Below, in pieces: positions 6,496 to 49,793 of a DNA stretch of 64,000 nt. The DNA is from Oscillospiraceae bacterium (lineage in GTDB: Bacteria; Bacillota; Clostridia; Oscillospirales; Ruminococcaceae). Position 1 is the stretch's first letter; each line of letters begins with the position of its first letter. The DNA is taken from positions 123,287 to 187,286 of the forward strand of contig JAFRTG010000011.1 of the NCBI GenBank assembly GCA_017427265.1. The letters run 5' to 3'. A program made the translations under genes and the position numbers. The notes under the pieces were generated by a model, which was not told the origin of the DNA, made no database searches, and worked only from the letters and a program-made list of their open reading frames with translations.

Positions 6496-6744
6496 ATGTC
6501 TAAGCAGGAAATTATTGATTACATGAGCAAACTGATCGCAGAGGCTTCCGATGAACCGGTGGATGGCCTTGATGAGAACACGAGCTTTTTCAAGATCGGT
6601 GTCTCGTCTGTCTCCGCACTCAAAATCATGAACAAGCTCAGAAAGCAGCTTCAGGTTGATATCAACCCGGTTGCAATGTTTGAGTACAAGACGCTCGGTG
6701 AGATGGCAGACTATCTGCAGGAGTGCCTGGAAGAAGCAGTATAA
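6496..6744 (+). CDS. Free-standing acyl carrier protein
   Basis: 82 aa. The start at ATG 6496 follows AAAGGAAA (6480-6486), and the frame upstream of it is not coding. It is a single four-helix carrier domain: the core reads FFKIGVSSVSALKIM, with Ser 38 as the expected 4'-phosphopantetheine site. The usual Asp before this Ser (DSL) is replaced by Ser, as in many PKS/NRPS carriers. It lies 56 bases after the FAAL/KS gene and 120 bases before the aminotransferase, so it probably holds the beta-ketoacyl chain extended by the ketosynthase and then the beta-aminoacyl product. The Sfp-type transferase at 16409 is the likely activating enzyme. Confidence 0.92.
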   Translation: MSKQEIIDYMSKLIAEASDEPVDGLDENTSFFKIGVSSVSALKIMNKLRKQLQVDINPVAMFEYKTLGEMADYLQECLEEAV

Positions 6745-6864
6745 TTCCGCAGGACGTTTTCCGGGAACGGCATACACCGCTGCTCCCGGAAACAGTTCCG
6801 GAAAAAGCGTTATTCAGTATGGAACAATCTGAAATTATCAAAAAATAACAGGAGAGTGATACAG

Positions 6865-8184
6865 ATGTCTTCAAAAATGCAGGAATACCATGAAAAAGTC
6901 AAGCAGTTCCTTCCCGGCGGTGTCCACTATAATTTTAACCTTCCGTGGGAAGAATCCCCGCTGCACTTTGTAAAGACAGAGAACAGCCGTGTCTTTGACA
7001 TGGACGGAAACGAATATCTGGATTTGTACGCACGTTTCGGCGCAATGATCCTCGGACACGCAAATAAGGATTATCAGGATGCATTGAAAGAAGCAATCGA
7101 CCGTGTGCTGTGCGTCAGCCACTGCGATTTTGACTACGAAGTGCTGGAGCTGATCCATCGGCTGGTTCCGTCGGCAGAGATGATCCGTTTCGGTCTGGCC
7201 GGTACGGAAATCGTTCAGAACGCACTGCGCGTTGCCAGAGCTTACACCGGAAAGAACAGATTTGTCCGCTTTGAAAAGCACTATCACGGCAACAACGACA
7301 ATATCATGGGCGGAAAGGTTAAAGACAAGGAGTATCCTGTGCCGTCTGATTTTGCCGGTGATACCTACGGCACATCCGGCAGAGCTGCTGACTGTATGGA
7401 AAGCCAGTCCTTCCTGCTGCCGTGGAACGATGAGGAAGCACTGGAAAAGCTGCTCAAGGAGCACGGTGACGAAATCGCTGCGGTGATTACCGAGGCCATG
7501 TGCGTCAACGGCGGCAGCGTGGAGCCGAAGCCGGGCTATCTCCAGAAAATGCGCAGCCTGTGCGATCAGTATCACGTTGTGTTGATTTTTGACGAAATCA
7601 TCACCGGTTTCCGTGTCGGACTGGGCGGTGCACAGGGCTATTACGGCGTGACACCGGATCTGACGACATTCGGCAAGGCAATCGCAGGCGGCGGCGTGCC
7701 GGTTTCCGTGCTTGCCGGCAAAAAAGAGATCATGTCTCTGCTGGAAGCCAAAAAGGTCATCCATGCCGGTACCTTCAACGGCTATCCGCTGGGTCTGGCC
7801 GCTGTCAAGGCGACACTTGAGATTCTTTCCAAGGATAACGGTGCGATTTATCCGAAGATGCAGGAGAAAATCACTGCAATTCAGAATATTCTGGTACAGA
7901 ATGCAGCCAAGGCCGGTGTTCCGCTGATCGTGCAGGGTCTGCCGGGATGTGCAGCATACCATTGCTGCGAGAAGCCGCTGGAAAGCCCCTCGGAATATAA
8001 CTTTGATATTATCACAAAGGATATTATTCTCAACACCTGTATGCAGAAGCACGGAATCCTGATTTCCTCGATGTCGCGTCTGTACTCGAACATTACGCTC
8101 AGCGACGACGATGTTGCGTGGTTTGAGAAGAACTCGATGGGCGCGCTGCGTGATGCAGCTGAGATTTTTGAAGATATCTGCTGA
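6865..8184 (+). CDS. PLP aminotransferase of the glutamate-1-semialdehyde aminomutase type (PKS-associated)
   Basis: 439 aa. ATG 6865 is chosen over GTG 6856 because AGGAG ends at 6854, which is too close to 6856. It is a full-length class III aminotransferase: FDEIITGFRVG holds the cofactor-binding Asp and TTFGKAIAGGG the Schiff-base Lys (Lys 271). The GSA-aminotransferase-like subfamily occurs as AMT domains in iturin, mycosubtilin and microcystin synthetases, where it converts a beta-ketoacyl-carrier to a beta-aminoacyl-carrier. Its place directly after the FAAL-ACP-KS and ACP genes favours that role over haem synthesis, and no other hem gene is nearby. The donor amino acid is not predictable from sequence. 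Confidence 0.92.
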   Translation: MSSKMQEYHEKVKQFLPGGVHYNFNLPWEESPLHFVKTENSRVFDMDGNEYLDLYARFGAMILGHANKDYQDALKEAIDRVLCVSHCDFDYEVLELIHRLVPSAEMIRFGLAGTEIVQNALRVARAYTGKNRFVRFEKHYHGNNDNIMGGKVKDKEYPVPSDFAGDTYGTSGRAADCMESQSFLLPWNDEEALEKLLKEHGDEIAAVITEAMCVNGGSVEPKPGYLQKMRSLCDQYHVVLIFDEIITGFRVGLGGAQGYYGVTPDLTTFGKAIAGGGVPVSVLAGKKEIMSLLEAKKVIHAGTFNGYPLGLAAVKATLEILSKDNGAIYPKMQEKITAIQNILVQNAAKAGVPLIVQGLPGCAAYHCCEKPLESPSEYNFDIITKDIILNTCMQKHGILISSMSRLYSNITLSDDDVAWFEKNSMGALRDAAEIFEDIC

Positions 8185-8199
8185 GAGAGGGGAATGAAA

Positions 8200-9057
8200 A
8201 TGGCTGAAACAGCAAAGCCCAGAAAGTATCTGTTGATTTTTCTGTGCATATGTTTTGGAGTTTGCTGGGGAATCTGTTTGCTTTACGGACTGATGAGCGA
8301 TACGATGACAAAAACCTTCGGTGAACTGACGCTGAGCAATCCGCTGGTGCATATTATCATGAATATTCCGGCTTTTGCAGCGCTTCTGATGTATTTTCTG
8401 TATGACGGCAAAAAGGGCCTTCTGGATTTCCTGAAAACGCTCGTTCCGCGGAAAAAGGACCTGAAGTGGATTCCGATTGTAATCGTCGGCATGGTCTTAT
8501 ATCTGATTTGCGTGCGGCTGGTCTGCATCGCAGTCGGAATCGAAGTGCCGGAGCTGGAATATTCACTGCCGCAGATGCTGAAGATTTTCCTCGTGAATTT
8601 CATCGGCGAGACCGGCATGATCGGGCAGGTGTTCGGCTGGTTCGGATTTTTGCTGCCCTATATGTATGCCAAAACAAAGAAAGGCGTTGCGGCCGGTATC
8701 TGGACAGGCTTTATTTTCTCGATGTTCCTGATGCCCGGTTATGTTTTCTCCTCCTTTGAGGCAGCAACATCCTTCCCGTTCTATATGATACAGAACATTA
8801 TGTTCACCCTTTGCGCAACATTCATTCTGAATGAGGTGAAGGGAAATCTGCTGTTTATGCTGCTGGCATTCTGGATTGCAGCGACCGGAAGCAAAGTGAA
8901 CCTCTATTACTTCGTTCCGTCGGTGCAGATTATTCAGATTGCGCTGTTTGCTGTCCTGTTTGTGATTCTGTATTTTATTTTCAAGAAAAAGAACGCAGGC
9001 AAGCAGCCGGAGGAAGTGCTGCAGATGTTCCCGAAATTCCTGTACCAGAACGGCTGA
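8200..9057 (+). CDS. CPBP-like integral membrane protein lacking protease residues
   Basis: About 285 aa with roughly eight hydrophobic segments. ATG 8200 is better spaced from AGAGAGGGG (8184-8192) than ATG 8194. The segment GQVFGWFGFLLPYM followed by GIWTGFIFSMFLMPGYVF aligns by pattern to CPBP (Abi/Rce1-like) motifs EExxWRGxLLP and SxxxWxxxHxP, but the paired Glu, the Arg and the His are all missing, so it is unlikely to be an active protease. In the family, CPBP proteins act in peptide maturation, export or self-immunity; as part of this cluster it may be an immunity or transport accessory (inference). It follows the aminotransferase by 15 bases. Confidence 0.75.
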   Translation: MAETAKPRKYLLIFLCICFGVCWGICLLYGLMSDTMTKTFGELTLSNPLVHIIMNIPAFAALLMYFLYDGKKGLLDFLKTLVPRKKDLKWIPIVIVGMVLYLICVRLVCIAVGIEVPELEYSLPQMLKIFLVNFIGETGMIGQVFGWFGFLLPYMYAKTKKGVAAGIWTGFIFSMFLMPGYVFSSFEAATSFPFYMIQNIMFTLCATFILNEVKGNLLFMLLAFWIAATGSKVNLYYFVPSVQIIQIALFAVLFVILYFIFKKKNAGKQPEEVLQMFPKFLYQNG

Positions 9058-9109
9058 ACAGACACGAATCCGAAAAGAAATATGTTTGCAGAATGCAGGA
9101 GCTGATAAA

Positions 9110-9877
9110 ATGGAAAAGAAACTCTTTAATTGCATTCGGAAGGGCAATACAGACAAGCAGCTGATTGTTTTTCCTTATCTTGGCGGAAGCGCGAATACGC
9201 TGATGGGAATGATGCAGGCGATCAAGGATCCTGAGGTCGAAATCTGGGCTGCCAATCCGCCCGGTCATATCGGTTCTGAAATTTCGCTGGAGCAGGACAT
9301 GGATGCACTGACAGATATGTACTGCTCCGAGCTGAAGGACATCGTCAAGCCGGAATGCTACCTGTTCGGTTACAGCATGGGCGGCAATATCATCTACTTT
9401 ATCTCTCAGAAATGGGAACAGAAAGAGATGAATCCGGACTGGCTGAAGGGACTTATCATTTCGGCCAGCGGTCCGCCCTGTATCATGTATCACACCAGAA
9501 ATTCGGAGCTGCCGTCCAATGCCCTGATTGACAAGCTCATGAAGTACAAGGCGCTGCCGGACGAGGTGCTCGAATGCGACGATGTGATGGAGATGCTGCT
9601 TCCGATTTTCCGTGCGGATTACCGTGTCATCGAAACAGGAGCGGAAATCGAAATCTCCAAAAAGCTGGATATTGACCATTATCTGATCTGGGGCGATTCG
9701 GATCCGTCACTGCCCGTCGAGGACCTTGGAAAATGGAGTCAATATTTTGACAAATCCGGCACCGTTCTCCCGATTCGTGACGGTGAGCATATGTTCGTTC
9801 ACCGCGTTCCGGACAAGGTTGCAGAGTATGTGGAGAATATTTTCGCCGGTGCATACCGTTCAGAGGATGATTTCTGA
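9110..9877 (+). CDS. Type II thioesterase (alpha/beta hydrolase)
   Basis: 255 aa. ATG 9110 has GCAGGA at 9095-9100; the upstream TTG at 9086 has no suitable site. The nucleophile elbow is GYSMGG (Ser 89), the acid is probably Asp in WGDSDPS (about 196-198), and the base is His 227 in DGEHMFVH. FPYLGGSANT near the start is the oxyanion region seen in TEII enzymes (FPYAGGxxxx). TEII proteins hydrolyse wrong or stalled acyl groups from carrier proteins. As no terminal TE domain is visible in the synthetases here, this enzyme could also release the product (inference). It is the last gene of the tight biosynthetic block; a 364-base gap follows. Confidence 0.9.
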   Translation: MEKKLFNCIRKGNTDKQLIVFPYLGGSANTLMGMMQAIKDPEVEIWAANPPGHIGSEISLEQDMDALTDMYCSELKDIVKPECYLFGYSMGGNIIYFISQKWEQKEMNPDWLKGLIISASGPPCIMYHTRNSELPSNALIDKLMKYKALPDEVLECDDVMEMLLPIFRADYRVIETGAEIEISKKLDIDHYLIWGDSDPSLPVEDLGKWSQYFDKSGTVLPIRDGEHMFVHRVPDKVAEYVENIFAGAYRSEDDF

Positions 9878-37438: not shown

Positions 37439-39009
37439 ATGAAACACACATCTTTTCTGCGTAAACTCACAGCCGCAGTGTTGAGCTGCACGCTCTGCTT
37501 TACCGGTTTGACGGTTCCTGCAAGTTCAGCGGAGGAAACCGAAGTACTCCCGCACGCTTCGACTGGCGAGATTCGGACACGCCGATCCTGACACCTGTCA
37601 AAACGCAGTACGGCGGCACTTGTTGGGTGTACGGACCGATGGGGTGCATTGAAGCTGACATGGTAAAAAAAGGCTATGCGGACAGCAGCCTTGACCTTTC
37701 CGAAACGCATCTGATATGGTTTACCAACGGTCAGGGTTCGCCGACTGATCCCGATAATCCATGTTACGGCGGCGGTCCGGAGCACGGCATTGAAGGCTAC
37801 AAAACAGGCGGAAATACTTATCGTGTCCTCGCTGCGCTTGCTGCTTGGCAGGGCGTTGTCTATGAAAGTGATTACCCTGCACATGCCGCCTTGCAGCCTC
37901 TGGACGAATCAGTGCGCTATCGATCTGTTGCACATTTTCAGAACGGAGAAATCTACAGCATTTCAGACAGGGATCATTTTAAAAAAATGATCATGGAAAA
38001 AGGACCGCTGTGCGGATCGTTTTTTCAAAGCTACGAAGTGTCTCTCTCGGAAAAAAGCGGATATTATAATCCTGATTACAAAAGCAGCGAGACAGATAAA
38101 GGGGGATGGCATGTTATCGCGATCGTGGGCTGGGATGATCATTTTCCGAAGGAGTATTTTAACAAGGAAGCAACCTCTGACGGCGCATGGATCATCCGGA
38201 ACAGCTACGGTGAAAACCATAAGAACTCCGATCACGGATATTTCTATATGAGTTACAGCGAAAAGACACTGCTGAACGGCTGCTATTATGATATGCAGCC
38301 GGTAACCAATTACGGGAATGTGTACCACTACAACAATATGTCATTCAAAAAGCAAGACACTTCGGGGAAGAACTGCGGTTATGTGACAGCGAATGTATTT
38401 GAAGCGGAAAAGGATAAAACGATCGCCGCGGCCGGCTTTTTTACAGCGTTAAGTCCGGAGGACTATGATCTGTCTGTGTATCTGCTGAATCCCGACTGTA
38501 CCGGACCACAGGACGGAACGCTGGTCTGCCAGACAAGCGGTACTTTGGATTTCAAAGGATTCCACACAATCGAACTCCCTGAACATATTGCGGTAAAAAA
38601 GGGACAGAAATATTCCGTCGTGATCAAACAGCCGATCGGCACAAATCATGCCGCATACTTTGATGTTTATAATTATAAAAGGGGCGTATCCTACTACGCA
38701 GAATATACGGCAGAAACAGATTTGTCCGATCTGGCATGGAAAGATTGCTATGATACAGAATTCGGAGATGTATGCATCCATGTATATACAGAATACGAGG
38801 GCGAAACGGAGCAGTTCATCCGCGGCGATCTAAACTGCGACGGCATAGTTGAAGCCGTTGATCTTTCGTTGCTGAAACAGGTATTGCTCGGCAGTGAACG
38901 GACGGACATTGACCGCAAGGCGACTGACTGGAACGGGGACGAAAATCTCGATATTGAGGATGCACGCGGCCTGCTTGACTTTTTGATGCAGGTTCCGGAA
39001 ACAGAATAA
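37439..39009 (+). pseudogene. Secreted papain-like (C1A) cysteine protease with C-terminal dockerin, broken by a frameshift
   Basis: ATG 37439 starts a signal peptide (LTAAVLSCTLCFTGLTVPASSA). Around 37550 the frame shifts: upstream it reads EVLPHASTGEIRTRRS-stop, while the other frame reads FDWRDSDTPILTPVKTQ, the start of a mature C1A enzyme (family: xFDWRxxxxVTPVKxQ). Restoring one base after CTCCCG would give LPARFDWR. Downstream all catalytic parts are present: Gln in VKTQ, Cys at 37621 (GGTCWVYG), His at 38110 (GGWHVIAIVGWDD), Asn in WIIRNSYG. The C-terminus is a full dockerin (GDLNCDGIVEAVDLSLLKQ...DWNGDENLDIEDARG). Either a recent pseudogene or a sequencing error. Confidence 0.85.
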
Positions 39010-39018
39010 AGGTATGGT

Positions 39019-39663
39019 ATGATGAGAGAAGAAAGGGATCGCTCGCTGGAATACTGGGAGCAGATTTTTGAAGAGACAAGGGAACTGAAGATTCAGACGG
39101 ATGACTGGCTGGACGAATTTGACAGCATCATTCGGGGGTGCAGCAAGCCGGTGCTCGATCTTGGCTGCGGGTTCGGCAATGATACGCTTGCGCTGATGCA
39201 GAAGGGCAAACAGGTCATCGCCTGCGATCAGTGTGAAAATGCGCTCAGCAATCTGCGGCGGAATCTGCCGGATGTGTACGAAACAAAGCGCGCGAATATG
39301 CTGGACGGGCTGCCCTTTGCGGATGATTCCTTTGAGGTCGTGATTGCAGACCTCTGCCTGCATTACTTCACAAAGGCTGATACGCTGCACATTTTGGATG
39401 AAATCCGGCGGGTGCTGGTATCGGGCGGGCATCTGTTTGTCCGCGTCAATTCGATCAACGATGTCAATTACGGTGCGTGTCAGGGCGAAGAGATCGAGCA
39501 TCATCTTTATCTGAATGCGGACGGCTGCCTGAAGCGCTTCTTTGATGAAGCGGATATCCGTGAAATATTTGGTGCGTTTGAGACCGTATTCCTGCGTGAG
39601 GAACGCATGATGCGGTATGCTGCTGACAAATATCTTTTCCGCATTGTTATGCGGAAAAAGTGA
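39019..39663 (+). CDS. Class I SAM-dependent methyltransferase
   Basis: 214 aa. Motif I VLDLGCGFGNDTLAL, motif II acidic region VIACDQC, motif IV FEVVIADLCLHYF, post-motif DEIRRVLVSGGHLFVRVNS. This is the Methyltransf_11/25 fold. The start at ATG 39019 (or 39022) follows AAAGG with about 5-base spacing, just 9 bases after the protease stop. The substrate is unknown; the C-terminal substrate part (ERMMRYAADKYLFRIV) is like small-molecule enzymes of the Tehb/UbiE type. Confidence 0.88.
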   Translation: MMREERDRSLEYWEQIFEETRELKIQTDDWLDEFDSIIRGCSKPVLDLGCGFGNDTLALMQKGKQVIACDQCENALSNLRRNLPDVYETKRANMLDGLPFADDSFEVVIADLCLHYFTKADTLHILDEIRRVLVSGGHLFVRVNSINDVNYGACQGEEIEHHLYLNADGCLKRFFDEADIREIFGAFETVFLREERMMRYAADKYLFRIVMRKK

Positions 39664-39963
39664 TTCAATCAAGTCCTAACTCACGAGGAGCTCTGTTGTT
39701 ACACCGGAGTAAAAGGGCATTTCTTTCAGGCTGTCTGCAATAATATCCAATATCATCAATGTACAGGCATTCCCGAAATCCGGTTTTACATGTCCGGCTA
39801 TACATTCAGAGACATACCGGAGTGTTTTTTCTGCTTGATTATTTGCTTGCTTTCCATTTCATATGATTGAAAGAGAAACGAAAATAGGAGAAGTTATACC
39901 TTGCCGGCGGAACTTCTCCTATTATCAATGATATTCAAATTTTGAAGTGCATAGATTACAGTC
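39664..39963. other. Intergenic region between methyltransferase and RiPP operon
   Basis: 300 bases between convergent genes. Apart from the strong terminator at 39883-39923 I see no coding or regulatory signal. Confidence 0.5.
39883..39923 (-). terminator. Terminator at the end of the RiPP maturation operon
   Basis: AATAGGAGAAGTT (39883-39895) and AACTTCTCCTATT (39911-39923) are perfect complements with a 15-base loop. On the minus strand the stem is followed by TTTTCGTTTCTC. It may also terminate the + strand methyltransferase transcript. Confidence 0.75.
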
Positions 39964-41136
39964 TTATCTTTTTTTTTGTATTCTTTTTCTGAATATTCTC
40001 ACAATAGGAAACATTACTATCAGAAAGAGATACTGTTTGATGCTCCAGAAGGCATTTGAAATACCGCCGTCTAAATTTTTCCGGAAAAGAATAATCATTG
40101 CAGACAATTCTCTCAGAACCAGAAATGCAATCATGCTCATGCTCAGCGTGAAATAAATAAGCTGCGGAACTGTGATTTTGATTTTCCCGCTTTTGAAGAT
40201 ATCCTTTACGGACGAGAAAGAGCGTTTTCTCAGATTCGGACTCTTCATAATGGTTGCAAGGATGAAATAACCGTCCAGCGGCAGCAAGGGGCATAAATTC
40301 ACGATAAAGTATGTAAAATTGATATAACATACATAATTGAGCGTGAAAATCAGATGCTCTGACGCGCCGAGCTGCTTGCATATCAGAGCCATTATAAATC
40401 CGGTACATCCGATAAATGCATTTGCCATGACACCGGCAAACCAGATATGAATACGTTGAATTGGCTTGACCGTATATAATCCGGGCAGTTTGATATAGAA
40501 AATTGGACTGATATACAGATACAATGTCAGCGATATGGATTTCGGAGCAAGACCGTATTTTGCTGCTGTGATGCCATGCGATAATTCATGCATAGAAATG
40601 GAGATTGACGACACCAAAAACATCAATATAAAATTTCGGATGTAGTGATCCTGAAAACCAAGCAAACTGAAATCAGTTATGCTGATTTTGTTCAGAAAAA
40701 ATAAAACTAAGGAAAGCACAGTCAATAAGACGGTTATGAGCGATGCAGGCATAACGAAGCGGGAAAGACGATCAAAAATGCCCTTCATTTTATCAATGCG
40801 AATGCCGATGACCTTGAATCCGAATCTCTCAAACTCGTTTTTTTGTGCATTGGGGTGATTTTCTTCCTGTAACAGGTCCGCTTTTTCCAGAATCGCGTAC
40901 ATTTTTCTGGAATTGATTGTCAGACCGGTATCAGCAGTGACTTTCTCTTCGATTTCATCAAAAGTATTGGTTCCGTCCATAAAAGAAATTGTTTTCAGAA
41001 CAATATCCTTTTTGCTTTCAGTAACCTCAATAAAACGATCTCTGTCGATGCTTCCGATTGCATATTTGTCCTCTTTGTTTTTATACTGATACAAGAGATA
41101 TGCGTGAATGTCTGGGGCTACACATGGCAGATCCAA
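39964..41136 (-). CDS. M50-type membrane peptidase/transport protein of a RiPP cluster
   Basis: About 390 aa. No ATG exists near the N-terminus; TTG 41136 has AGAGGTGAG directly upstream and begins 7 bases after the maturase stop, so it is preferred over TTG 41175. Residues about 40-110 (KTISFMDGTNTFDEIEEKV...KMYAILEKADLL) look like a PqqD-like RiPP recognition domain. Then come eight or so membrane helices with HELSHG (His 183, Glu 184, His 187) and a second metal motif in NLCPLLPLDGYF, the site-2-protease pattern. In RiPP loci such proteins remove the leader and/or help export. The partner genes are the radical SAM maturase and three precursors. Confidence 0.82.
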   Translation of the reverse strand: MDLPCVAPDIHAYLLYQYKNKEDKYAIGSIDRDRFIEVTESKKDIVLKTISFMDGTNTFDEIEEKVTADTGLTINSRKMYAILEKADLLQEENHPNAQKNEFERFGFKVIGIRIDKMKGIFDRLSRFVMPASLITVLLTVLSLVLFFLNKISITDFSLLGFQDHYIRNFILMFLVSSISISMHELSHGITAAKYGLAPKSISLTLYLYISPIFYIKLPGLYTVKPIQRIHIWFAGVMANAFIGCTGFIMALICKQLGASEHLIFTLNYVCYINFTYFIVNLCPLLPLDGYFILATIMKSPNLRKRSFSSVKDIFKSGKIKITVPQLIYFTLSMSMIAFLVLRELSAMIILFRKNLDGGISNAFWSIKQYLFLIVMFPIVRIFRKRIQKKR

Positions 41137-41143
41137 AATCAGC

Positions 41144-42478
41144 TCACCTCTTATTTGATATATTTGACAATGCAATCAATACCTGTTCGGTTAAAGCACG
41201 CTGCATATCGCAATCAAGATCTGACGTTTCAAAAACATCGCCTGTAGCGAAGTAATTCGCGCCGATACAGCCGGAACAAATTCTGTTGTTGAAACAGTCT
41301 TTGCACTTGGGATACTGATATTTGCTGAATCCGCTGAATCTGGATTTTTGTGCTGTAAAGGTCTCATTTTCAAAGAAGGGAACCTTATCATATACATTTC
41401 CTAAGCGGAATTCCGGCATATCCGTAAACAAAAAGCAAGGATAAATATCACCTTTACTGGAAACGGAAAACTGTGTGATGCCCGCCATACACAAATGACA
41501 GTTTGATTTTTTCCACTTCAGTGCCTCCAGAATTCTGCCGACAAAAGAATAAGTATATTCTTTCTTATTCTCAACTTTTTCTTTGAAAATTTCGCTGACC
41601 GAGTCAACGAAACCGCTTCTGTCCTCGATTTTATAATCTGCACTGTCGTCACCGGATGCAGGAACAAGATGAATATCAGAAATCTGCAGTTCATCTTTAA
41701 GATACCTGATCGTATCCATAACGGACAATTTCTGATTGACATGGTTGATGTTATAAGTTGTTTCAGCTCCTACGATCGGAACACCTGCATTCCGATATTT
41801 CTCGATATTTTCAATCACTTTGTCAAATGATCCGGTTCCTTCTTTATAAATACGCATACTGTCATGCACGGATTTCGGACCGTCAATGCTGAATGTCAAT
41901 CCAATTTGATACTTTTTAATTGTTTCCGCCAGCTGATCCGAATAAATTGTACCGTTTGAAATTGTGCCGAATGCAGGCAATCCGGCCAGCTTTTTTTCTT
42001 CCACAAGCTTTGTAAAATATTCACATACAAAGCGAATGACCGGCTCATTCAATAACGGCTCTCCGCCGAAAAACTGAATGCTCTGAATAACATTGTATTT
42101 TTGCAGAACCGTGTCAATCGCCAGTTTCGCGGTCGGAATATCCATCATGCATTCTGATGAACCGTAACTGCCGCCGCATGCATAGCAGTATTTGCAGTCA
42201 AGATTACATTTATTCGTTACATTCAGCACCAGTTTTGAAAGAAAACCTTCCCGATCAGGGTTAAATTCCTCAATCGGCTCCGCATATATGGTGTTATATA
42301 AATTTTGGAATGTTTCCTCAGATATGCTGTATTTTGAGATGATTTCCTCTTTTGAAATTTCGTTTTCGATATCTGTAACAACATTCTTTACAGTTCCGTT
42401 GACATTAAAAAATTTCAATGTCTGCGGAACAAATAAAAGATATTGATCATTTCCTTTATCTATAAAATGAATTTTCAT
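41144..42478 (-). CDS. Radical SAM/SPASM peptide maturase
   Basis: 444 aa from ATG 42478 (AAGAGG upstream; TTG 42484 is too close). The N-terminal 80 residues (YLLFVPQTLKFFNVNG...IISKYSISEETFQNLY) resemble a PqqD-like leader-binding domain. The radical SAM core has CNLDCKYC (Cys 91, 95, 98) and GGEPLL. The C-terminal SPASM part has several Cys groups for auxiliary iron-sulfur clusters (CHLCMAG, YPCFLF, CKDCFNNRICSGC). This layout is that of enzymes that form thioether crosslinks in Cys-rich precursors (sactipeptides and ranthipeptides). The three upstream precursors supply the expected Cys-rich cores. Confidence 0.92.
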   Translation of the reverse strand: MKIHFIDKGNDQYLLFVPQTLKFFNVNGTVKNVVTDIENEISKEEIISKYSISEETFQNLYNTIYAEPIEEFNPDREGFLSKLVLNVTNKCNLDCKYCYACGGSYGSSECMMDIPTAKLAIDTVLQKYNVIQSIQFFGGEPLLNEPVIRFVCEYFTKLVEEKKLAGLPAFGTISNGTIYSDQLAETIKKYQIGLTFSIDGPKSVHDSMRIYKEGTGSFDKVIENIEKYRNAGVPIVGAETTYNINHVNQKLSVMDTIRYLKDELQISDIHLVPASGDDSADYKIEDRSGFVDSVSEIFKEKVENKKEYTYSFVGRILEALKWKKSNCHLCMAGITQFSVSSKGDIYPCFLFTDMPEFRLGNVYDKVPFFENETFTAQKSRFSGFSKYQYPKCKDCFNNRICSGCIGANYFATGDVFETSDLDCDMQRALTEQVLIALSNISNKR

Positions 42479-42538
42479 CTTCAATGATCCTCTTAAATTA
42501 TTTTATAACATTCATGATTGTTTTATGGATGCGGCAAA

Positions 42539-42626
42539 GAAGCCGCGCAGAAGAAATCTTCCGGGCATTGTATCTGAATTATATCCGGTACAGTGCCGTT
42601 TACGGATTTCAGTTCAGCGCGGTTCT
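42539..42626 (-). repeat. Post-precursor hairpin repeat, copy 1
   Basis: An imperfect inverted repeat with arms around GCCGCGC (42542-42548) and GCGCGGTTCT (42617-42626), just after the stop of precursor 1 and before the maturase gene. It is the most diverged of three related copies. On the minus-strand RNA it forms a long stem that could terminate partially and set the ratio of precursor to maturase. Confidence 0.6.
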
Positions 42627-42649
42627 TGTTGCCTGGAATGTACAGTCAA

Positions 42650-42808
42650 TTACAGACATCCGATGCCAAAGCAGCCCCAGCCGCATGCAACACCACAACT
42701 GGTTCTTGCACCGCAGAAGAAACCGCCGCTGTTAGCTCCGATGGGAGTATCGGACTCCTCGAGAACTTCGATTTCCTCGATTTCGACTTCATTCATCTTG
42801 AATTCCAT
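42650..42808 (-). CDS. Cys-rich RiPP precursor peptide 1
   Basis: 52 aa, too short for routine gene calling. ATG 42808 is preceded by AAAGGAG. The leader begins MEFKMNEVEIEEIEVLEE and is shared with the two other precursors. The core is Gly/Cys-rich with five Cys (positions 32, 38, 42, 46, 51) spaced x5, x3, x3, x4, ending in GCFGIGCL. Closest to the maturase gene (172 bases). Such acidic helical leaders bind PqqD-like domains. Thioether links from Cys to residues in between are expected if the maturase acts as in ranthipeptides (inference). Confidence 0.9.
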   Translation of the reverse strand: MEFKMNEVEIEEIEVLEESDTPIGANSGGFFCGARTSCGVACGWGCFGIGCL

Positions 42809-42869
42809 GTTCAGAATCTCCTTTCGTCAGATTTACCATAGTACTAATTTGTACGAATGGCATAAATGT

Positions 42870-42898
42870 ATTATATCATCTAAAGACAGTATTGTCAA
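42870..42898 (-). promoter_or_regulatory. Consensus promoter of precursor 1
   Basis: Minus strand TTGACA (42898-42893), a 17-base spacer and TATAAT (42875-42870). Both boxes are perfect. The start of transcription is expected near 42863, giving a leader of about 55 bases. Confidence 0.85.
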
Positions 42899-43068
42899 TA
42901 CTGGAACTGAAAACGCTCCAGAATTTGTAGAAAGTGTTTATGTTTTTGTAGTGCTATTGCTCGATTTGTATAAACATCACTGATAATATTGCCGTCAAGA
43001 TGTTTACTTTTTTATAAGCCCTGAAAATGCCAAGCCTCTGAAAAGGAATCAATTCAGCACCTGCAAAA

Positions 43069-43144
43069 AGCCGCGCTGAAGAAATCTGCTGTACATTGAT
43101 CGGAATCTGATACAATGCCTTGCAGAAATATCTTCAACGCGGCT
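43069..43144 (-). repeat. Post-precursor hairpin repeat, copy 2
   Basis: AGCCGCGCTGAAGA (43069-43082) and TCTTCAACGCGGCT (43131-43144) pair with only one U-G wobble on the minus-strand RNA. It lies 20 bases after the stop of precursor 2. The internal sequence (CTGTACATT, GATACAATGC) is shared with copy 3. Confidence 0.75.
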
Positions 43145-43164
43145 CTGTTGTATCTGGCATGATA

Positions 43165-43299
43165 TTACCAGCAAATATAGCCCCTAATACCCGTGCAACC
43201 AAATCCACAGAAATGGCCATACAAAGAATGGCTCAGCGAGTCAGTTCCATCGAGAAATTCAATTTCCTCGATGACAACTTCGTCCATTTTGAATTCCAT
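43165..43299 (-). CDS. Cys-rich RiPP precursor peptide 2
   Basis: 44 aa. ATG 43299 is preceded by GAAAGGAGA. The leader MEFKMDEVVIEEIEFLDG matches precursors 1 and 3; the core (from about residue 24) is HSLYGHFCGFGCTGIRGYICW with Cys 31, 35 and 43 (CxxxC then x7). Ends in CW, like precursor 3 (CWY). Own promoter at 43362-43390 and own downstream hairpin. Confidence 0.88.
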   Translation of the reverse strand: MEFKMDEVVIEEIEFLDGTDSLSHSLYGHFCGFGCTGIRGYICW

Positions 43300-43361
43300 G
43301 TACACAATCTCCTTTCATTCATATTTGTCATTGTACAATATTGTGATAATGACATGTACTT

Positions 43362-43390
43362 ATTATATCATTAAGCCGCGAAAATGTCAA
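43362..43390 (-). promoter_or_regulatory. Consensus promoter of precursor 2
   Basis: Minus strand TTGACA (43390-43385), a 17-base spacer and TATAAT (43367-43362), both perfect. Confidence 0.85.
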
Positions 43391-43560
43391 TACAGAATTT
43401 GACCTGTTCATGATTCTGTCAATAGTGTACGATTTATTCGACTGATATTGCTCAATTTGTGTTTGACGGCAAGAGTATATTGCTGGCAAGATAATTGTTC
43501 TTTGAAAGGATGCATGAAAATTCAGCTCCTCTGAAAACCAGATGCGTCCAGTCAATGCAA

Positions 43561-43639
43561 GAACCGCGCTGAAGAAATCCGCTGTACATTATAGTCCAAT
43601 TCGATACAATGCATTTGCAGATTTATTTCAACGCGGCTC
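43561..43639 (-). repeat. Post-precursor hairpin repeat, copy 3
   Basis: GAACCGCGCTGAA (43561-43573) pairs with TTCAACGCGGCTC (43627-43639) on the minus-strand RNA with G-U wobbles. It lies 21 bases after the stop of precursor 3. Strongly similar to copy 2 over its full length. Confidence 0.75.
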
Positions 43640-43660
43640 TTTTGGGCATAGTATTCAGGA

Positions 43661-43807
43661 TTAGTACCAGCAAAAGAAACCGCCGATACATCTATAACCA
43701 CACCAGCCCCCACTTGTTGGACGGATTCCGGGCGGATAACTCGGCGTAATCGTTTCTTCGAGAACTTCAATTTCCTCGATTTCAACTTCATCCATTTTGA
43801 ATTCCAT
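43661..43807 (-). CDS. Cys-rich RiPP precursor peptide 3
   Basis: 48 aa. ATG 43807 is preceded by GAAAGGAG. The leader MEFKMDEVEIEEIEVLEE is shared almost exactly with the other copies. The core contains a Pro-rich segment (PSYPPGIRP) and WCGYRCIGGFFCWY at the end, with Cys 36, 40 and 46 (CxxxC then x5). Its promoter is the first on the transcribed strand of the locus. Confidence 0.9.
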   Translation of the reverse strand: MEFKMDEVEIEEIEVLEETITPSYPPGIRPTSGGWCGYRCIGGFFCWY

Positions 43808-43853
43808 GTTCAAAGACTCCTTTCATCATATTTACCATAAACGGTATGTTTTT

Positions 43854-43883
43854 ATTTTAGCATATATGTCGCCTGCGTGTCAA
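43854..43883 (-). promoter_or_regulatory. Promoter of precursor 3
   Basis: Minus strand TTGACA (43883-43878), an 18-base spacer ending in TATATGC, and TAAAAT (43859-43854), with an extended -10. Confidence 0.8.
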
Positions 43884-44510
43884 TACTGTTGACGTGTTTT
43901 ATATAAATTTTGTGAACAACGTATATTATGTATGGATATTATTGCTTGGGTTGTACATATTATATGAAAAATAATGCTAAAAGTCATTTTGTTTTCATAA
44001 GGCTTCCGGATATGCCCGAAAGCAGCAGGCAGAGCGCAGGAGCTGCGGCCGTTCCGGTTTTTTATGGCTTATTTCTGCTGTCCGGCATAGTTTCTCCCTT
44101 TTCAATGCACGTATCATTCTGTTCGTCGATCTTTTCCGTACCGCTTGCTACGTTCCTGTTCTGTGGAAATTCAGAAATATCAGGTGACTCGATGCCTTTC
44201 ACCCGCATAATGTCGATCAATTTCATCAGTTGCACGGCAGCCTGCGGTCTGTCACCGGGTATAAACTAAATTCCCGTTTTTCTAGTTGCGCTGATCATGG
44301 AATTTCAGCGTGCGTGAAAAAAATTGCCAAGCGCTGACAAGAAGTTTAACAGGAAATCCCCCTTATCAGGCAATTCAAAGGAGTATCTCTGCTCCTGCTT
44401 GATCAGGGGGATCAATTCGTATTACTTGTAAAAAGTATAGAGACCGGAAAAACTCCATGGTACTGCGATTAAAAGAAAGTACGGCCGCCTCTATAACGCC
44501 TATGTAAAAA
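43884..44510. other. Gene-poor region between RiPP locus and LRR gene
   Basis: About 630 bases. A minus-strand frame around 44062-44265 reads like the end of a soluble protein (GDRPQAAVQLMKLIDIM) but begins at a stop without a start codon, so it is at best a gene remnant. Nothing else is supported. Confidence 0.4.
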
Positions 44511-45170
44511 TCAGATTTGAATAATCTTTGTTTGAATCGGGAAGGCATCCTCTGCAATGATTGCACCAGCCGGAACCCCTGCTGACAGCAATGCGGTGCA
44601 GCCGTAGAATGCATGTGATTCAATGCGGCGGAGTGCGGCAGGGAAATGAATCGTTTTTAGTGCGGTGCAGCCCCAGAAGGTGTCAGCCGCAACTGTCTGA
44701 ACGCCATTCGGGATCGTGAACTCTGTCAGCGATTTACAGCTGGAAAAAGCGCCCTTGCCGATCAGGGTGACCGTGTCCGGAATGCGTAATTTGATCAGTT
44801 GCCGGCACTCCGAAAATGCCTGTGCGCCGATTTGGGTGATGCTGTCCGGCATTACGACACTGCGCAGGTTACGTGCGGAGAGAAATGCGTTGCTGCCGAT
44901 CTCTTTGATGCTGTCCGGCAGGATGACATAGCTGTTTTTGCCTTTATAGCGTACCAGCACACCGCGGTCGATCTCAAGATCGCTCAGGGGCGTCGCCGAA
45001 AATTCCTTTTTCGAGAAGGATGTCGTCTGCGGTACCGGTGTCGAGTTGGCAAAAATCGCTTTCGCGGTGAAAAACGGTTTGCCGCAGGCAGGACAGATCA
45101 TCGCTTCCCTTGCGCGGTCAACGGTAATGACTGCCCCGCATAAGGGGCAGAATGCGTGATTCAGGTTCAT
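44511..45170 (-). CDS. Zinc-ribbon protein with BspA-type leucine-rich repeats
   Basis: 219 aa. The N-terminus has CPLCG...CPACG, a zinc ribbon. Residues about 75-215 hold five LRR_5 repeats with the pattern IPDSVTxIGxxAFxxCxxLxxxxIP (KEIGSNAFLSARNL, TQIGAQAFSECRQL, TLIGKGAFSSCKSL). No signal peptide, so probably cytoplasmic or non-classically exported, unlike the surface BspA proteins. Function unknown. Confidence 0.82.
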   Translation of the reverse strand: MNLNHAFCPLCGAVITVDRAREAMICPACGKPFFTAKAIFANSTPVPQTTSFSKKEFSATPLSDLEIDRGVLVRYKGKNSYVILPDSIKEIGSNAFLSARNLRSVVMPDSITQIGAQAFSECRQLIKLRIPDTVTLIGKGAFSSCKSLTEFTIPNGVQTVAADTFWGCTALKTIHFPAALRRIESHAFYGCTALLSAGVPAGAIIAEDAFPIQTKIIQI

Positions 45171-45308
45171 ATGCTTTATCCTTTCTCAATTCAGTAAATG
45201 CGCGAAATCAGTACGCCTCAATGAATGCATATGCACTCTGACAGAAGCATCCGGTCAGTTTGTCATCGGATGAAACGATACAAAGCCCGCAGCCCTCTGT
45301 ATACCAGA

Positions 45309-45337
45309 ATTATAGCACAAAAGAAGGAATAAGTCAA
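45309..45337 (-). promoter_or_regulatory. Promoter of the zinc-ribbon LRR gene
   Basis: Minus strand TTGACT (45337-45332), a 17-base spacer ending in TGC, and TATAAT (45314-45309). It is 139 bases before the start. The remainder of the 335-base gap to 45505 holds only the extended -10 (TGCTATAAT, 45457-45465) of the next + strand gene. Confidence 0.75.
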
Positions 45338-45505
45338 TCAGAAATCCAGGACAGGCGGCACTGCGAAGAACCGGCGGTGCTGATGTGTATGGGATTATAA
45401 AGGAGCCGTTGGGTTCCCATGTCTGCACACAGTTAAAGACTTATTAAGTATTTCCGTGCTATAATCGTAGCATAGAGAAACCCACATACGAAATGAGGTA
45501 TTGAC

Positions 45506-46434
45506 ATGTTCTGGAGAATACTCAAAAAAGATCTGAAACGCAAGAAAACGATGAATGTGATTCTGCTGCTGTTTGTGATCCTGTGTGCAATGTTTGCATC
45601 GGCGGCAGTCAATAACATCATCGCTGTGACAGGCGGTATTGAGCACTATTTTGAAGCAGCCAATATGCCGGATGTCACTGTACAGATGCTCGCCGAGGAA
45701 AGTACGGCAGAGGAACGAATCAGAGTGCTGCCGTCCGTGAAGGAAGTCAAGGCGGAGCAATGGCTGATCGTTCTGAGCTCAAAGAGCTTTGAGCACAACG
45801 GAAAAAAGCTCGAAAACTTCTTTAATCCTGCGGGGCTGATTTCCGAATCCGAAATGGGCATCCACTATTTCGATCATGAAAACAAGATCATCGAACAGGT
45901 CGGAAAGGGCTGTTTCTACGCAAACAAACCGTTCTTTCAGGATACAGATATCCGGATCGGTGATGATGTCGTGCTGACGGTCGGAGATACGAAACGGACG
46001 CTGAAATTCTGGGACAGTTCAAGGGTGCGCTGTTCAGCAATGAAACAAATTCCAATCCGTTCCTGATTCTGAACGCAAACGATTACATTGATTTTGACAG
46101 GGAAGAAAGTACACATTTTCAGAATTTCAAGATGCTCTATGTAAAATCATCGGATGCAGAAGCAATCCGGGATATTGCGAAAGACTACGATTATGTGAAT
46201 GTCAGCACCAAAGAAGACAGCAGGAATATTCACCTGTATGACATGATTGCGGCATATATCATGATGGTAATCAGCATTGCGCTGATGATTACCGCATTTG
46301 TGGTGCTGCAGTTTACGATCGGCTTCACGATCAGCGATGAATTACGCGAGATCGGCGTGATGAAAGCGGTCGGTATCGGCAGCCGCAGCATCCGCGGATT
46401 GTATATTGGTTGCAAGGCTGGCATAAATATCTAA
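45506..46434 (+). pseudogene. FtsX-like ABC permease, frameshifted and truncated
   Basis: The N-terminus MFWRILKKDLKRKKTMNVILLLF is a normal FtsX permease start with a first helix. Near 46008 one base is missing: the frame reads LKFWDSSRVRC-stop at 46066, while the +1 frame reads LGQFKGALFSNETNSNPFLIL and continues into the FtsX domain (AFVVLQFTIGFTISDELREIGVMKAVG). It then ends after IRGLYIGCKAG with a stop at 46434, although the family needs a further 400-500 residues. No ATPase gene follows. A decayed relic. Confidence 0.88.
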
Positions 46435-46759: not shown

Positions 46760-47928
46760 ATGAAAGAGGACAATTACGGAATGCAGGCCATGCAGGCGGA
46801 GGCGCCGCAGAAACCGGAAGCAGCCGTTCCGCCGCTGAATACAGAAAAGCTGCCAAAGGAAAAGAAGATACGCAGAAAGCCGAATGCCGCTGCTGAGGTC
46901 ATCAACGGGACTGTGATCGAAGCCGAGATTGAAACCAGAATGCGAAAAAAAATGCTGCGCAAATATCTGATCCGGGTCGGGGCATGTGTGCTGATTTTTT
47001 CGGCTGTGTTCCTGCGTATCTTCGGGAGCTCTCTGCTGTCGCTGCTCCACGGCTCGGATGATATGTTCATCCGGCATTTCCGCGAGCCGGTCAGTCTGGA
47101 AGAAAATCCGAAGCTGGTCGAGCTGATGTATGACGCTGCACGGGACGGCGGACGGGATTTTTCGTTTGACACGGAGCTTCTGCGCTGCAATACTGCTGAA
47201 CAGGCATTCAAGATCATCAGCGCATCCTGTATGGCAATGTTGGACGAGCATCCGGAAATTTTTTTCTCTACGGTGCTGATCCGACGATATATACCGGCGG
47301 AAAGGACGGCGCACAGCTTGGCAAAAGGATTGATTGCTCGTTTTTCATCTTTGAAGAATTTCAGCATATGCCGCGCAAAAAAATGTATTCGGAAATGGAA
47401 AAAGAAGCAAAGCGTATTGTGTCGCTGGCGCCGAAGCATTGCAGTGATTCTGAGAAGGCGTTGTTTATCCACGATTACCTCGCCGGCAATGTGGAGTATG
47501 ATGTAGCCGGCAGCAAGAGCGACGACTATGATCTTTGTTTTACCGCCTACGGCGCACTGAAAGATCACTCTGCCGTCTGTAACGGCTATGCCTGTGCCTA
47601 TGCGTATCTGATGCATCTGATGGATATTGACTGCAAGGTCGTCACGGGAGAGGCCAAAACGGAAGGCCTTGAAACGCTGCTTGTGAAGCTGTCACTGATC
47701 GACAACAGGCATGCGTGGAATTGTATCGAACTGGACGGCGAGCATTACTGGGTCGATGTCACATGGGACGATTTTGATCCCGTTTCGCATACCTATTGTT
47801 TTATTGATGACAAAACGCTGTTTGAAAGCCATAAGCTGAATGACGCCTATAAGGATCTTCCGTCCTGCAAGAGTACGAAGCTGAACGACAGTCTGCTTCT
47901 GGCCGATCAGAACGGTGCAGCAAACTGA
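46760..47928 (+). pseudogene. Membrane-anchored transglutaminase-like protein, frameshift in a T7 run
   Basis: ATG 46760 has AAAGGAGAG upstream. After a Pro/Lys-rich cytoplasmic part comes one membrane helix (VGACVLIFSAVFLRIFG). The frame breaks at the T7 run 47259-47265: upstream EHPEIFF, and in the +1 frame YGADPTIYTGGKDGAQL; one more T would give EIFFLYGADPTI. Downstream is a full transglutaminase-like core with Cys in AVCNGYACAYA, His in NRHAWNCIEL and Asp in YWVDVTWDD. The second half runs to 47928. Gene may be off by slippage or switch by phase variation; a sequencing error in the run is also possible. Confidence 0.82.
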
Positions 47929-47942
47929 TGAGGGATAACCAC

Positions 47943-49793
47943 ATGAAACCACATTTTACAGTGCGCATCACAGCAGCCGGAACAGCATTGCTCCTTGCCT
48001 TTGCAAATGTCGGGGCTCTGCCTGTTTCTGCGGAAACCGTAGTACCTGCTCCGGAATTCTCACAGGAAAGCGGCTTCTATGCAGATTCCTTTGCTTTGCG
48101 TCTGACCGCGCCGGAGGGCTTTACCGTCTACTATACACTCGACGGCAGCGACCCCACTGCTGATTCACAGCAGTATCAGGCACCGATTACCGTTTATGAC
48201 CGGACGCCGGAGGAGAATATTTACGCTGCGGTCAAGGATGTTGATGTGGGTTATATTCCGCCGGAGGAGCCTGTTGACAAAGCGATGATCGTGCGGGCAG
48301 CAGCGGCGGATGCAGCAGGCCATTTCAGCGAGACCGTGACCAAGACTTATTTCATCGGCTATTCAGAAAGCGATTACCTGATGAAAATACCGATCATCTC
48401 GCTGGTTACTGACCCGGCGAATCTGTTTGACCCGCAAAAGGGTATTTATATCGACGGCTCTGATGATAATCCGAACGGCGGATTTTTGCCGAACTTTATG
48501 CGGGAGGGAAAGGAGTGGGAGCGTCCCGCGCACTTCACAGTGTTTGAAAACGGTGCAGCTGCCTACAGTGCCGAAATCGGCATCCGCATTCACGGAAACT
48601 CCTCCCGCTACTCCCCGCAGAAGAGCTTTTCGTTCTATTCGCGCAAGGAATACGGCACCAAGCGTATCAAATATGATTTCTTTGACGGTGCGCGAAAGGA
48701 CATCGACGGTAATGTACTGGAATCGGTCAATCACGTTGTCGTGCGGAACGGCGGCAACGATCAGCATCTGAAAATCCGTGACCGGCTGAATCAGGAGATG
48801 GCTGCGGGTCTCCGCTGCGGTACGCAGGCACAGCATGAATGTATTCTGTTCCTCGACGGCGAATACTGGGGGCTTTACAATATCACAGAAAAGGTAAACG
48901 AATCCTATGTCGCAGATCATTATCATATCAGCAAGGATGACGTCCTTCTGATGAAAAACCTTCCGGTTCCTGAGGATGACATCGGCGGTTTACTGGATTT
49001 GTATGCACTTTCGCAGCGGGTCTGGAGCGAAGAGGATCCCTATGATCTGTTTGCCGAACGCATGGATATGGGGAGCTTTGCCGATTATGCTGCGGTTGAG
49101 CTGATTGTCGGGAACATTGACTGCGGCTACAACAATTATGCGCTCTGGAAAAGCAAGACGATTGACCCGGCGAATCCCTATGCGGACGGCCGATGGCGCT
49201 TTGTTTTGTACGATACGGAATACGGTCAGGGGCTTTTCGGCATGTCGGAGCCGGATCAAAGTGTTTTTGAGGAGCTGCAAAGCAGGGGCGGCGGAATTTT
49301 GGACATTCTGTTTACGCTGCTGCAATACAGTCCGCGGTTCCGCACAGAGTTTGCAGCAGCCTATCTGCGCATCTGCGGGGAGAATTATAATTCCGGCAGG
49401 GTGCTGAGCCGAATGGATGAGCTGTGGCTTGCATATCGTGAGCCGCTGACAGAGACCTATGCGCGGTTCCGCTTCAATACTTATGACAGCTATGACCTCG
49501 CAGATCTGTCGTATGAGGAAGCACTGACGAAGCTCTGTACCGTCCTGCAGAACTTTTGGGAAAAGCGTCCGGAATACGCGGCGGCGCAATCCATTCAGCA
49601 GCTGCAGCTCTATATCATAATCGGAGATGTGAACGGTGACGGAATAACCGGTGCAGCAGATGCGGCACTGCTCCGTGACTGGCTGCTTGGCAATCCGGAT
49701 GCAGTGCTGACTGAATGGTACGCTGCTGATATGAATACAGACGGCAAGCTCGATGCAGCCGATCTGACGCTGCTGCAGCAGATGTTGCTGTGA
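47943..49793 (+). CDS. Secreted CotH-kinase-family protein with C-terminal dockerin
   Basis: 616 aa from ATG 47943 (GAGGGA 7 bases upstream; the overlapping ATG 47928 lacks a site). Signal peptide (LLLAFANVGALPVSA), then a chitobiase C-terminal-like beta domain (FTVYYTLDGSDPTADSQQY), then a CotH domain (IRIHGNSSRYSPQKSFSFY, LFLDGEYWGLYNITEKVNESYV, DTEYGQGLF). The C-terminus is a dockerin (GDVNGDGITGAADAALLRDW and DMNTDGKLDAADLTLLQQM). CotH proteins of spores are protein kinases; in rumen bacteria dockerin-CotH proteins are known as cell-surface or cellulosome components of unclear role. Confidence 0.9.
   Translation: MKPHFTVRITAAGTALLLAFANVGALPVSAETVVPAPEFSQESGFYADSFALRLTAPEGFTVYYTLDGSDPTADSQQYQAPITVYDRTPEENIYAAVKDVDVGYIPPEEPVDKAMIVRAAAADAAGHFSETVTKTYFIGYSESDYLMKIPIISLVTDPANLFDPQKGIYIDGSDDNPNGGFLPNFMREGKEWERPAHFTVFENGAAAYSAEIGIRIHGNSSRYSPQKSFSFYSRKEYGTKRIKYDFFDGARKDIDGNVLESVNHVVVRNGGNDQHLKIRDRLNQEMAAGLRCGTQAQHECILFLDGEYWGLYNITEKVNESYVADHYHISKDDVLLMKNLPVPEDDIGGLLDLYALSQRVWSEEDPYDLFAERMDMGSFADYAAVELIVGNIDCGYNNYALWKSKTIDPANPYADGRWRFVLYDTEYGQGLFGMSEPDQSVFEELQSRGGGILDILFTLLQYSPRFRTEFAAAYLRICGENYNSGRVLSRMDELWLAYREPLTETYARFRFNTYDSYDLADLSYEEALTKLCTVLQNFWEKRPEYAAAQSIQQLQLYIIIGDVNGDGITGAADAALLRDWLLGNPDAVLTEWYAADMNTDGKLDAADLTLLQQMLL

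Follow-up and report, generated by a model that had tools for sequence, protein, structure and literature searches.

On the minus strand at 39964–43883 of the window (the whole 64,000-nucleotide stretch of DNA that was analysed), three precursor genes, a radical SAM/SPASM maturase gene and an M50 protease gene occupy ~4 kb (Table 1). The G+C content of the locus is 39%, compared with 49% in its flanks, and the RiPP island was probably acquired horizontally. The tandem precursors, the orthologous loci, and the CteB-like fold and RRE-like front of the maturase give good support to its assignment as a Cys-rich radical SAM RiPP locus.

Table 1. Features of the locus, with positions numbered along the window
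Feature	Position	Strand	Details
Sigma-70 promoter match, copy 3	43854..43883	-	TTGACA-18-TAAAAT, TG before -10; 11/12
Precursor copy 3, 48 aa	43661..43807	-	leader ...LEETITP, predicted core SYPPGIRPTSGGWCGYRCIGGFFCWY; SD AAAGGAG 43817-43823
Long hairpin 3' of copy 3	43558..43644	-	-44.2 kcal/mol, z -7.8
Sigma-70 promoter match, copy 2	43362..43390	-	TTGACA-17-TATAAT; 12/12
Precursor copy 2, 44 aa	43165..43299	-	same register, Leu replaces motif Pro; core ...CGFGCTGIRGYICW
Hairpin 3' of copy 2	43066..43150	-	-44.1 kcal/mol, z -7.3
Sigma-70 promoter match, copy 1	42870..42898	-	TTGACA-17-TATAAT; 12/12
Precursor copy 1, 52 aa	42650..42808	-	leader ...LEESDTP, predicted core IGANSGGFFCGARTSCGVACGWGCFGIGCL
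Hairpin between copy 1 and maturase	42538..42630	-	-37.5 kcal/mol, z -5.7
Radical SAM/SPASM maturase, 444 aa	41144..42478	-	RRE-like front 1-65, CxxxCxxC 91-98, seven SPASM Cys 330-423
M50 site-2 protease, PqqD-like front, 390 aa	39964..41136	-	TTG start

Precursor units

The three precursor open reading frames reported in the initial annotation are all present, at the lengths given there, and so is their common leader: MEFKMDEVEIEEIEVLEE is exactly that of copy 3, and 13 of 18 positions are invariant across the three copies. Each precursor forms a unit of its own, in which a strong sigma-70 promoter match is followed by AAAGGAG (at -16 to -10 in all three cases), the reading frame and a long hairpin. 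Given the promoter matches, the strong hairpins and the equivalents standing before homologous maturases in other genera, it is very unlikely that these reading frames arose by chance. The separate promoters and hairpins, like the daptide-like pairing of leader and protease described below, were absent from the initial annotation. The hairpin 3' of copy 3 may be a terminator or an RNA stabiliser; a second full copy was not found elsewhere in the genome, outside the locus, and an Rfam search of 39000–45500 gave chance-level matches only. Among the promoter matches listed, none lies on the minus strand between the hairpin that follows copy 1 and the start of the maturase.

With NCBIfam, the three precursors and eleven precursors of relatives fall into no family (one chance match, E 0.1), and with Pfam the three precursors and four others gave two chance matches only, below cut-off. 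Of the core pattern described earlier, C-x3-C holds for all three copies, in the form CGxxC, but the terminal Cys-Trp holds for copy 2 only, copy 1 ending in Cys-Leu and copy 3 in Cys-Trp-Tyr.

Maturase and protease

The maturase gene product matches Radical_SAM and SPASM in Pfam (SPASM at 27.2 bits, cut-off 21.5) and the protease matches M50 (36.7 bits, cut-off 27.2), as had been proposed for both. The PqqD-like N terminus ascribed to the maturase is borne out by the predicted model, with three strands and three helices, but not by Pfam, which shows no PqqD domain. The best fold match of the maturase model is CteB, over the full length from residue 1 and with the N-terminal RRE included. The Cys pattern of the SPASM region (C330-x12-G343-x4-C348, C392, C395, C401, C404, C423) follows the pattern CX9-15GX4C, CX2CX5CX3C, C used as a criterion, except that C401 and C404 are spaced by x2 instead of x3; the seven SPASM Cys are all present in 17 of 17 aligned maturases. 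The Aux I cluster is predicted to have an open site. Cys327, near the first SPASM Cys and found in the window maturase only (1/17), could fill that cluster.

The SPASM match and the predicted RRE-pattern front together correspond to the SPASM or Twitch radical SAM enzyme with a leader-binding RRE that is one criterion for sactipeptides. The maturase lies below the cut-offs of all 25 NCBIfam families listed, the nearest being PapB (NF047865; 191.1 bits, cut-off 340), with SCIFF (TIGR03974; 169.8, cut-off 425), CcpM (TIGR04068; 136.7, cut-off 500), GggB (113, cut-off 650), RumMC (100, cut-off 720) and the Clo7bot maturase (TIGR04334; 61.3, cut-off 600) also short of theirs. The fold is matched too by TigE, SuiB, ChlB and EpeE, which are related SPASM folds with non-Cys chemistry.

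For the protease, the TTG at 41136 is most likely the start rather than position 41175, given AAGAGGTGAG upstream of the TTG and agreement with the closest homologue; a start at 41175 would overlap the maturase gene. HExxH and DGYF are invariant in 12 of 12 aligned sequences. The nearest NCBIfam family is the daptide protease (98.2 bits, cut-off 300), whose profile gives E below 0.001 in five of five family members; the epipeptide protease profile (NF058609) gives 35.9 bits against a cut-off of 225. The predicted model of the PqqD-like front comprises three strands and three helices, with no PqqD in Pfam. Searches of the PDB found nothing significant with the predicted model of the protease and, with a profile of its front, a non-significant best match to Pcc2 (E 0.12); profile comparison gave no support for kinship between the fronts of protease and maturase.

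Relatives, leader motif and cores

The precursor–maturase–protease order is kept in relatives, which belong to Clostridia-type bacteria and one Paenibacillus, a distribution that suggests an undescribed peptide family. The list of relatives is incomplete, since genome contigs were scanned with one peptide pattern. A plasmid search yielded two records at about 30% identity, and IMG/VR no relative. In the literature, searched with core strings included, no description of this family was recognised; it could be an unnamed cluster in a network like that of PMC9062424.

Most leaders of the family carry L-E-[ED]-x-x-T-P, in the same register as the daptide motif ELExMEAP, after whose Pro the daptide leader is reported to be cut (PMC10036551). 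Compared with ELExMEAP, copies 1 and 3 keep L(-7), E(-6) and P(-1), not M(-4)E(-3)A(-2), and copy 2 is without P. The association between this motif and the M50 protease, with states scored by hand, comes down to three phylogenetically independent pairs (sign test, median p 0.25). A further M50 locus, L095, whose candidate precursor is without the motif, was omitted from this contrast; with L095 counted, p is 0.0010, or 0.0075 if the EYTP of Anaerocolumna is scored as motif. Loci L092 and L096 have the M50 protease and are without the motif Pro.

CGxxC is common to many cores (post hoc set: 13/13; 21 sites versus 2.5 in shuffles) and does not occur in the outgroups or in the GFGCPxGWFGxYC group. 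In the window products, thioether chemistry is likely, in keeping with the thioether product family proposed earlier; a PapB-kind ranthipeptide is disfavoured. In a ranthipeptide, the maturase would form beta or gamma thioethers in the style of PapB or SCIFF, to residues other than Asp/Glu, and the PapB profile does match seven of seven family maturases with the best E-value overall, while the best fold match is a SCIFF enzyme; with both profiles far below cut-off on the window maturase and Cys-x3-Asp/Glu found in none of the three window cores and none of 32 overall, whereas Cys/Asp or Cys/Glu pairs serve PapB (PMC9413430), such a product is unlikely. Less probable still is a modification away from Cys (epimerisation, or C–C or C–O links at Trp, Tyr or Phe) with the Cys left as disulfides. 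Aromatic residues are plentiful in many cores and strongly conserved in position in the GFGCPxGWFGxYC group, and SuiB, TigE and EpeE share the fold of the maturase; however, Cys and Gly occur in every core listed and aromatic residues do not (e.g. R. hungatei ACGGGCGAGC), and the Aux I site is predicted open.

As regards function, lantibiotic-protection is the best family for three of three ABC ATPases beside relatives, all below cut-off, and these neighbours of relatives only would suggest antimicrobial use of the product. Among nine neighbours tested at the window locus there is no lantibiotic-protection-like ATPase and no recognised immunity or export gene. FtsX-like fragments at 45506–46434 were considered as an immunity remnant and rejected, showing no similarity at E 1e-3 to the loci of 23 relatives. 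That the product is a cell–cell signal and not antibacterial seems rather doubtful in view of the ATPases, despite the LytTR regulator and the GHKL kinase that lie immediately upstream in Paraclostridium ghonii and two reading frames of similar size at the same place in Clostridiaceae 14S0207. A decaying or silent locus would fit the lack of a recognised immunity or export gene among the tested neighbours, the lost Pro of copy 2 and the decayed relative in Peptoniphilus lacydonensis; with uninterrupted reading frames in all five genes, undamaged catalytic motifs and two perfect promoter matches, it is the least credible of these alternatives.

Proposed pathway and comparison with known systems

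The products of the locus are most likely thioether RiPPs of a new and probably sactipeptide-like subfamily, freed by a daptide-type protease; for the explanation as a whole (RiPP island, sactionine-like links and daptide-type release) a probability of roughly 0.6 is estimated. Each precursor gene would be strongly transcribed from its own promoter up to its hairpin, and maturase and protease would be expressed less strongly, from transcripts that read through the third hairpin. The acidic leader would be bound by the RRE of the CteB-like maturase, which, with its predicted open Aux I site, would join Cys sulfurs to backbone carbons of neighbouring residues around CGxxC, with 2 Da lost per link. 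These carbons are most likely alpha (sactionine-like) rather than beta or gamma, since the cores are without the Asp/Glu that PapB uses. By homology and the motif register shared with daptides, the M50 protease, membrane-bound and with an RRE of its own, would read L-E-[ED]-x-x-T-P and cut after Pro, freeing the core at the membrane. The product would probably be a secreted set of antibacterial or signalling peptides with three different cores.

A broader proposal, at somewhat less than even odds, is that of a distinct Bacillota class of radical SAM peptides, in which the leader code L-E-[ED]-x-x-T-P, with the RRE–site-2 protease that reads it, is common to daptides as well and the modifying chemistry has been swapped, a CteB-like enzyme making small thioether rings from CGxxC. 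Leader and protease would then be a release module portable across RiPP classes, with ...TP-ACGGGCGAGC and ...TP-GSGFGCNC as minimal substrates. If so, many uncharacterised radical SAM peptides could be found and released with the help of a single short motif, and a membrane protease of the daptide type would prove to serve unrelated chemistry. With their predicted cores of 10 residues, the R. hungatei precursors would then offer unusually simple substrates for studies of radical SAM sulfur cross-linking.

With sactipeptides (subtilosin A, ruminococcin C, streptosactin) the locus shares a Cys-rich core and a SPASM/Twitch enzyme, and S–C-alpha links are expected in its products; leader, protease and core pattern differ from those of known sactipeptides, and the RumMC and GggB cut-offs are not reached. 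CteB/PapB-type maturases likewise combine RRE, radical SAM and SPASM in the same fold over the full length, whereas the window maturase scores well below both cut-offs and is adjoined by an M50 protease, its precursors belong to no NCBIfam family and its cores lack Cys-x3-Asp/Glu. Epipeptides (EpeE/YydG with EpeP/YydH) also pair an M50 protease with a radical SAM enzyme, the protease serving release (PMC10885120 and PMC7026026). Daptide clusters have several precursors each and an N-terminal RRE fused to the site-2 protease (MpaP), and some encode radical SAM enzymes too (PMC10036551). Unlike daptides, the window precursors end in Tyr, Trp or Leu instead of an invariant C-terminal Thr, the M50 protein is below the daptide cut-off, and the radical SAM enzyme is the sole modifying enzyme within 39964–43883, with no daptide oxidase, aminotransferase or methyltransferase gene. 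What appears daptide-like is the combination of multiple precursors, an RRE-like front on a site-2 protease and, in copies 1 and 3, a leader with L(-7)E(-6)...P(-1).

Precursors, maturase and protease of the window locus

The three precursor ORFs, the maturase gene and the M50 gene lie where the initial annotation had placed them, and together they are a real RiPP island, which is probably functional. The leader quoted there for copy 3 was recovered unchanged (13 of 18 leader positions are invariant across the three copies), and the claimed divergence of the cores is borne out by the aligned copies. Over codons 1–20, pairwise comparison of the copies gives 2–5 synonymous and 3–6 non-synonymous codon differences, the latter mostly beyond codon 14. 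The M50 reading frame is open from 41175, where no ribosome site is evident; an alternative start, the TTG at 41136, is preceded by AAGAGGTGAG and yields an N-terminus that agrees with the closest homologue, from Ruminococcus sp. HAN027. Precursors and maturase have no NCBIfam family of their own (release 20, among the matches listed), and the Cys-rich peptide/maturase island was not recognised in the literature searched.

Features of the window locus, its surroundings and loci of relatives
Feature	Source	Position	Strand
Whole locus	window	39964–43883	minus
Precursor copy 3, 48 aa	window	43661–43807	minus
Precursor copy 2, 44 aa	window	43165–43299	minus
Precursor copy 1, 52 aa	window	42650–42808	minus
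Radical SAM/SPASM maturase	window	41144–42478	minus
M50 site-2 protease	window	39964–41136	minus
Dockerin-bearing protein, lectin-like domain	window	37627–39009	
Dockerin-bearing protein, CotH and chitobiase-type domain	window	47928–49793	
Two adjoining ORFs, second with FtsX domain	window	45506–46434	plus
Near-identical predicted peptide SFGF[GA]CP[HN]GWFGx[YH]C[HN]	L061, Paenibacillus phytohabitans	6927–7211	
Same peptide	L055, Clostridium hydrogenum	6698–6832 and 7059–7193	
Same peptide	L056, Bacillota MAG	2396–2554	
Decayed locus	L057, Peptoniphilus lacydonensis	6990–9760	
51-aa Cys-rich ORF	L095	3744–3899	

A precursor unit of ~495 bases is present three times; in each, a promoter match precedes AAAGGAG and the ORF, and a long hairpin follows. 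The sigma-70 matches are 12/12 for copies 1 and 2 and 11/12 for copy 3; since the scan as a whole yielded 15 promoter-like sites where 13.5 were expected, these three matches are telling only by quality and position. The hairpins fold at energies between −37.5 and −44.2 kcal/mol (z between −5.7 and −7.8). They reach no Rfam gathering score, and no further full copy turned up elsewhere in the genome. Their consensus fold holds 34 pairs, two of which are changed on both sides, without a favourable covariation term, so that an RNA function is not provable from three copies; the simplest reading is a terminator or 3′ stabiliser. No promoter match appears in the scan listing directly upstream of the maturase, which would therefore be expressed by low-level read-through.

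Origin, host and relatives

The island has 39.1% G+C, against 49.1 and 48.7% in its flanks. Among 30 genomes of the genus the maturase occurs in its own genome only, the remaining matches having 26–29% identity; within the class, four genomes out of 391 reach 1e-50 or better, and within the phylum three out of 398 reach 1e-55 (own included in both), as do five of 146 in one related family. The adjacent dockerin proteins suggest a cellulosome-bearing host and, together with nearby glycoside hydrolase genes, a plant-fibre-degrading one.

Scanning contigs for a single peptide pattern gave 61 matching stretches, of which 24 were confirmed as loci. Ruminococcus sp. HAN027, the closest of these relatives (49% across the query part and 51% across the protein), has a contig that starts just upstream of the maturase. 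The order precursor–maturase–M50 is kept in Clostridium luticellarii (three precursors), C. hydrogenum (two), Ruminiclostridium hungatei (five, near-identical), Paraclostridium ghonii, Paenibacillus phytohabitans and two other Bacillota, and Peptoniphilus lacydonensis carries a decayed version with a broken precursor remnant and the M50 gene in two pieces. In a maturase tree of 31 rows (short search), the window falls inside a 16-row group with SH-aLRT 94. Some relatives without M50 have as neighbours what we take to be CPBP-like membrane proteins, the one tested giving no Pfam match; others adjoin a ~600-aa ABC transporter (Pfam-based for Anaerocolumna only).

Several relatives have ABC-2 type transporters downstream of M50; for the three ATPases tested, the best NCBIfam family is lantibiotic protection ATPase, at 210–237 bits, below the cut-off of 310. 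Two kinds of two-component regulators adjoin some relatives. No such transporter, protection ATPase or regulator was recognised among nine neighbours tested at the window locus. The two adjoining ORFs at 45506–46434, on the plus strand of the window, resemble parts of a shortened ABC permease and show no similarity to loci of the Cys-rich peptide family.

Related maturases also occur at L062–L066, in rumen/gut MAGs of Lachnospiraceae and Peptostreptococcaceae, with candidate precursors ending in [IM]GxxCV-like sequences, a ~600–700 aa ABC transporter in four of five (judged from length and sequence start) and no M50 seen at the loci. Two Methanosarcinaceae MAGs (L067, L068) encode a related SPASM maturase; no precursor was recognised.

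Cores and bond chemistry

CGxxC is found in all three window cores; 13 precursors with such cores, picked after the motif was noticed, hold 21 sites against 2.46 in shuffles (0/5000 as high). A second core group without CGxxC, GF[GA]CP[HN]GWFGx[YH]C, occurs in Paenibacillus as well as in C. hydrogenum and two further Bacillota. Near-identical peptides of this kind, predicted in P. phytohabitans, C. hydrogenum and a Bacillota MAG, suggest that one product has been conserved and has passed between genera that are far apart.

We prefer alpha thioethers as the product of the maturase, with a probability of about 0.45, because Cys-x3-Asp/Glu occurs in none of 32 cores, whereas PapB, a ranthipeptide maturase, links Cys to Asp or Glu (PMC9413430). 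The same absence of the PapB acceptor pattern weighs on beta/gamma thioethers, the second choice after alpha and an unlikely one.

A wider group of loci (L092, L093, L094 and L096; genomes G790, G792, G826 and G781) combines RRE-M50, radical SAM and tandemly arranged precursors whose Cys-ended cores are very short (GSGFGCNC, GYGFGCNC, GFSFGGYHCC, NWTGCANCCN). Nearby lie a BtrH_N protein and an FtsX-type permease (Pfam for L093 each), and genes resembling ACP and ketosynthase.

Leader motif, M50 protease and daptides

HExxH and DGYF are kept in all 12 M50 proteins aligned (window and relatives), and the front of the predicted model forms three strands and three helices (pLDDT 80). The nearest profile is the daptide intramembrane protease, at 98 bits, below the cut-off of 300, the match beginning at profile position 14.

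The loose motif [LIVM][EDT][EDST]xx[TQSN]P is present in 19 of 27 distinct precursors of M50 loci (strict form, 14) and in none of the five precursors of three loci without M50. By locus, it accompanies 10/12 with M50 versus 0/8 others (Fisher 0.0007, or 0.0045 counting Anaerocolumna EYTP), a count that omits a thirteenth M50 locus, L095, whose candidate precursor has no motif and with which p becomes 0.0010 (0.0075 counting EYTP); on the tree only three of its contrasts are independent of one another (median p 0.25). In window copy 2, Leu occupies the expected Pro position, and L092 and L096, M50 loci with distant maturases, have Gly or Ala. The L095 ORF follows a good ribosome site and adjoins RRE-M50 and radical SAM genes, its maturase being a distant branch of the tree.

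The window-family leader, L-E-[ED]-x-x-T-P (ELESTVTP in R. hungatei), is in the same register as the daptide motif ELExMEAP, which is reported to be cleaved behind its Pro (PMC10036551); positions −7, −6 and −1 are Leu, Glu and Pro in both. No earlier description of radical SAM and M50 combined with such precursors was found in the literature searched. The component parts are already known: some daptide clusters are reported to include genes for radical SAM enzymes (PMC10036551), and epipeptides and pearlins to involve M50 proteases (PMC10885120). The window island unites a maturase like CteB, that of SCIFF peptides, with a daptide-like release module.
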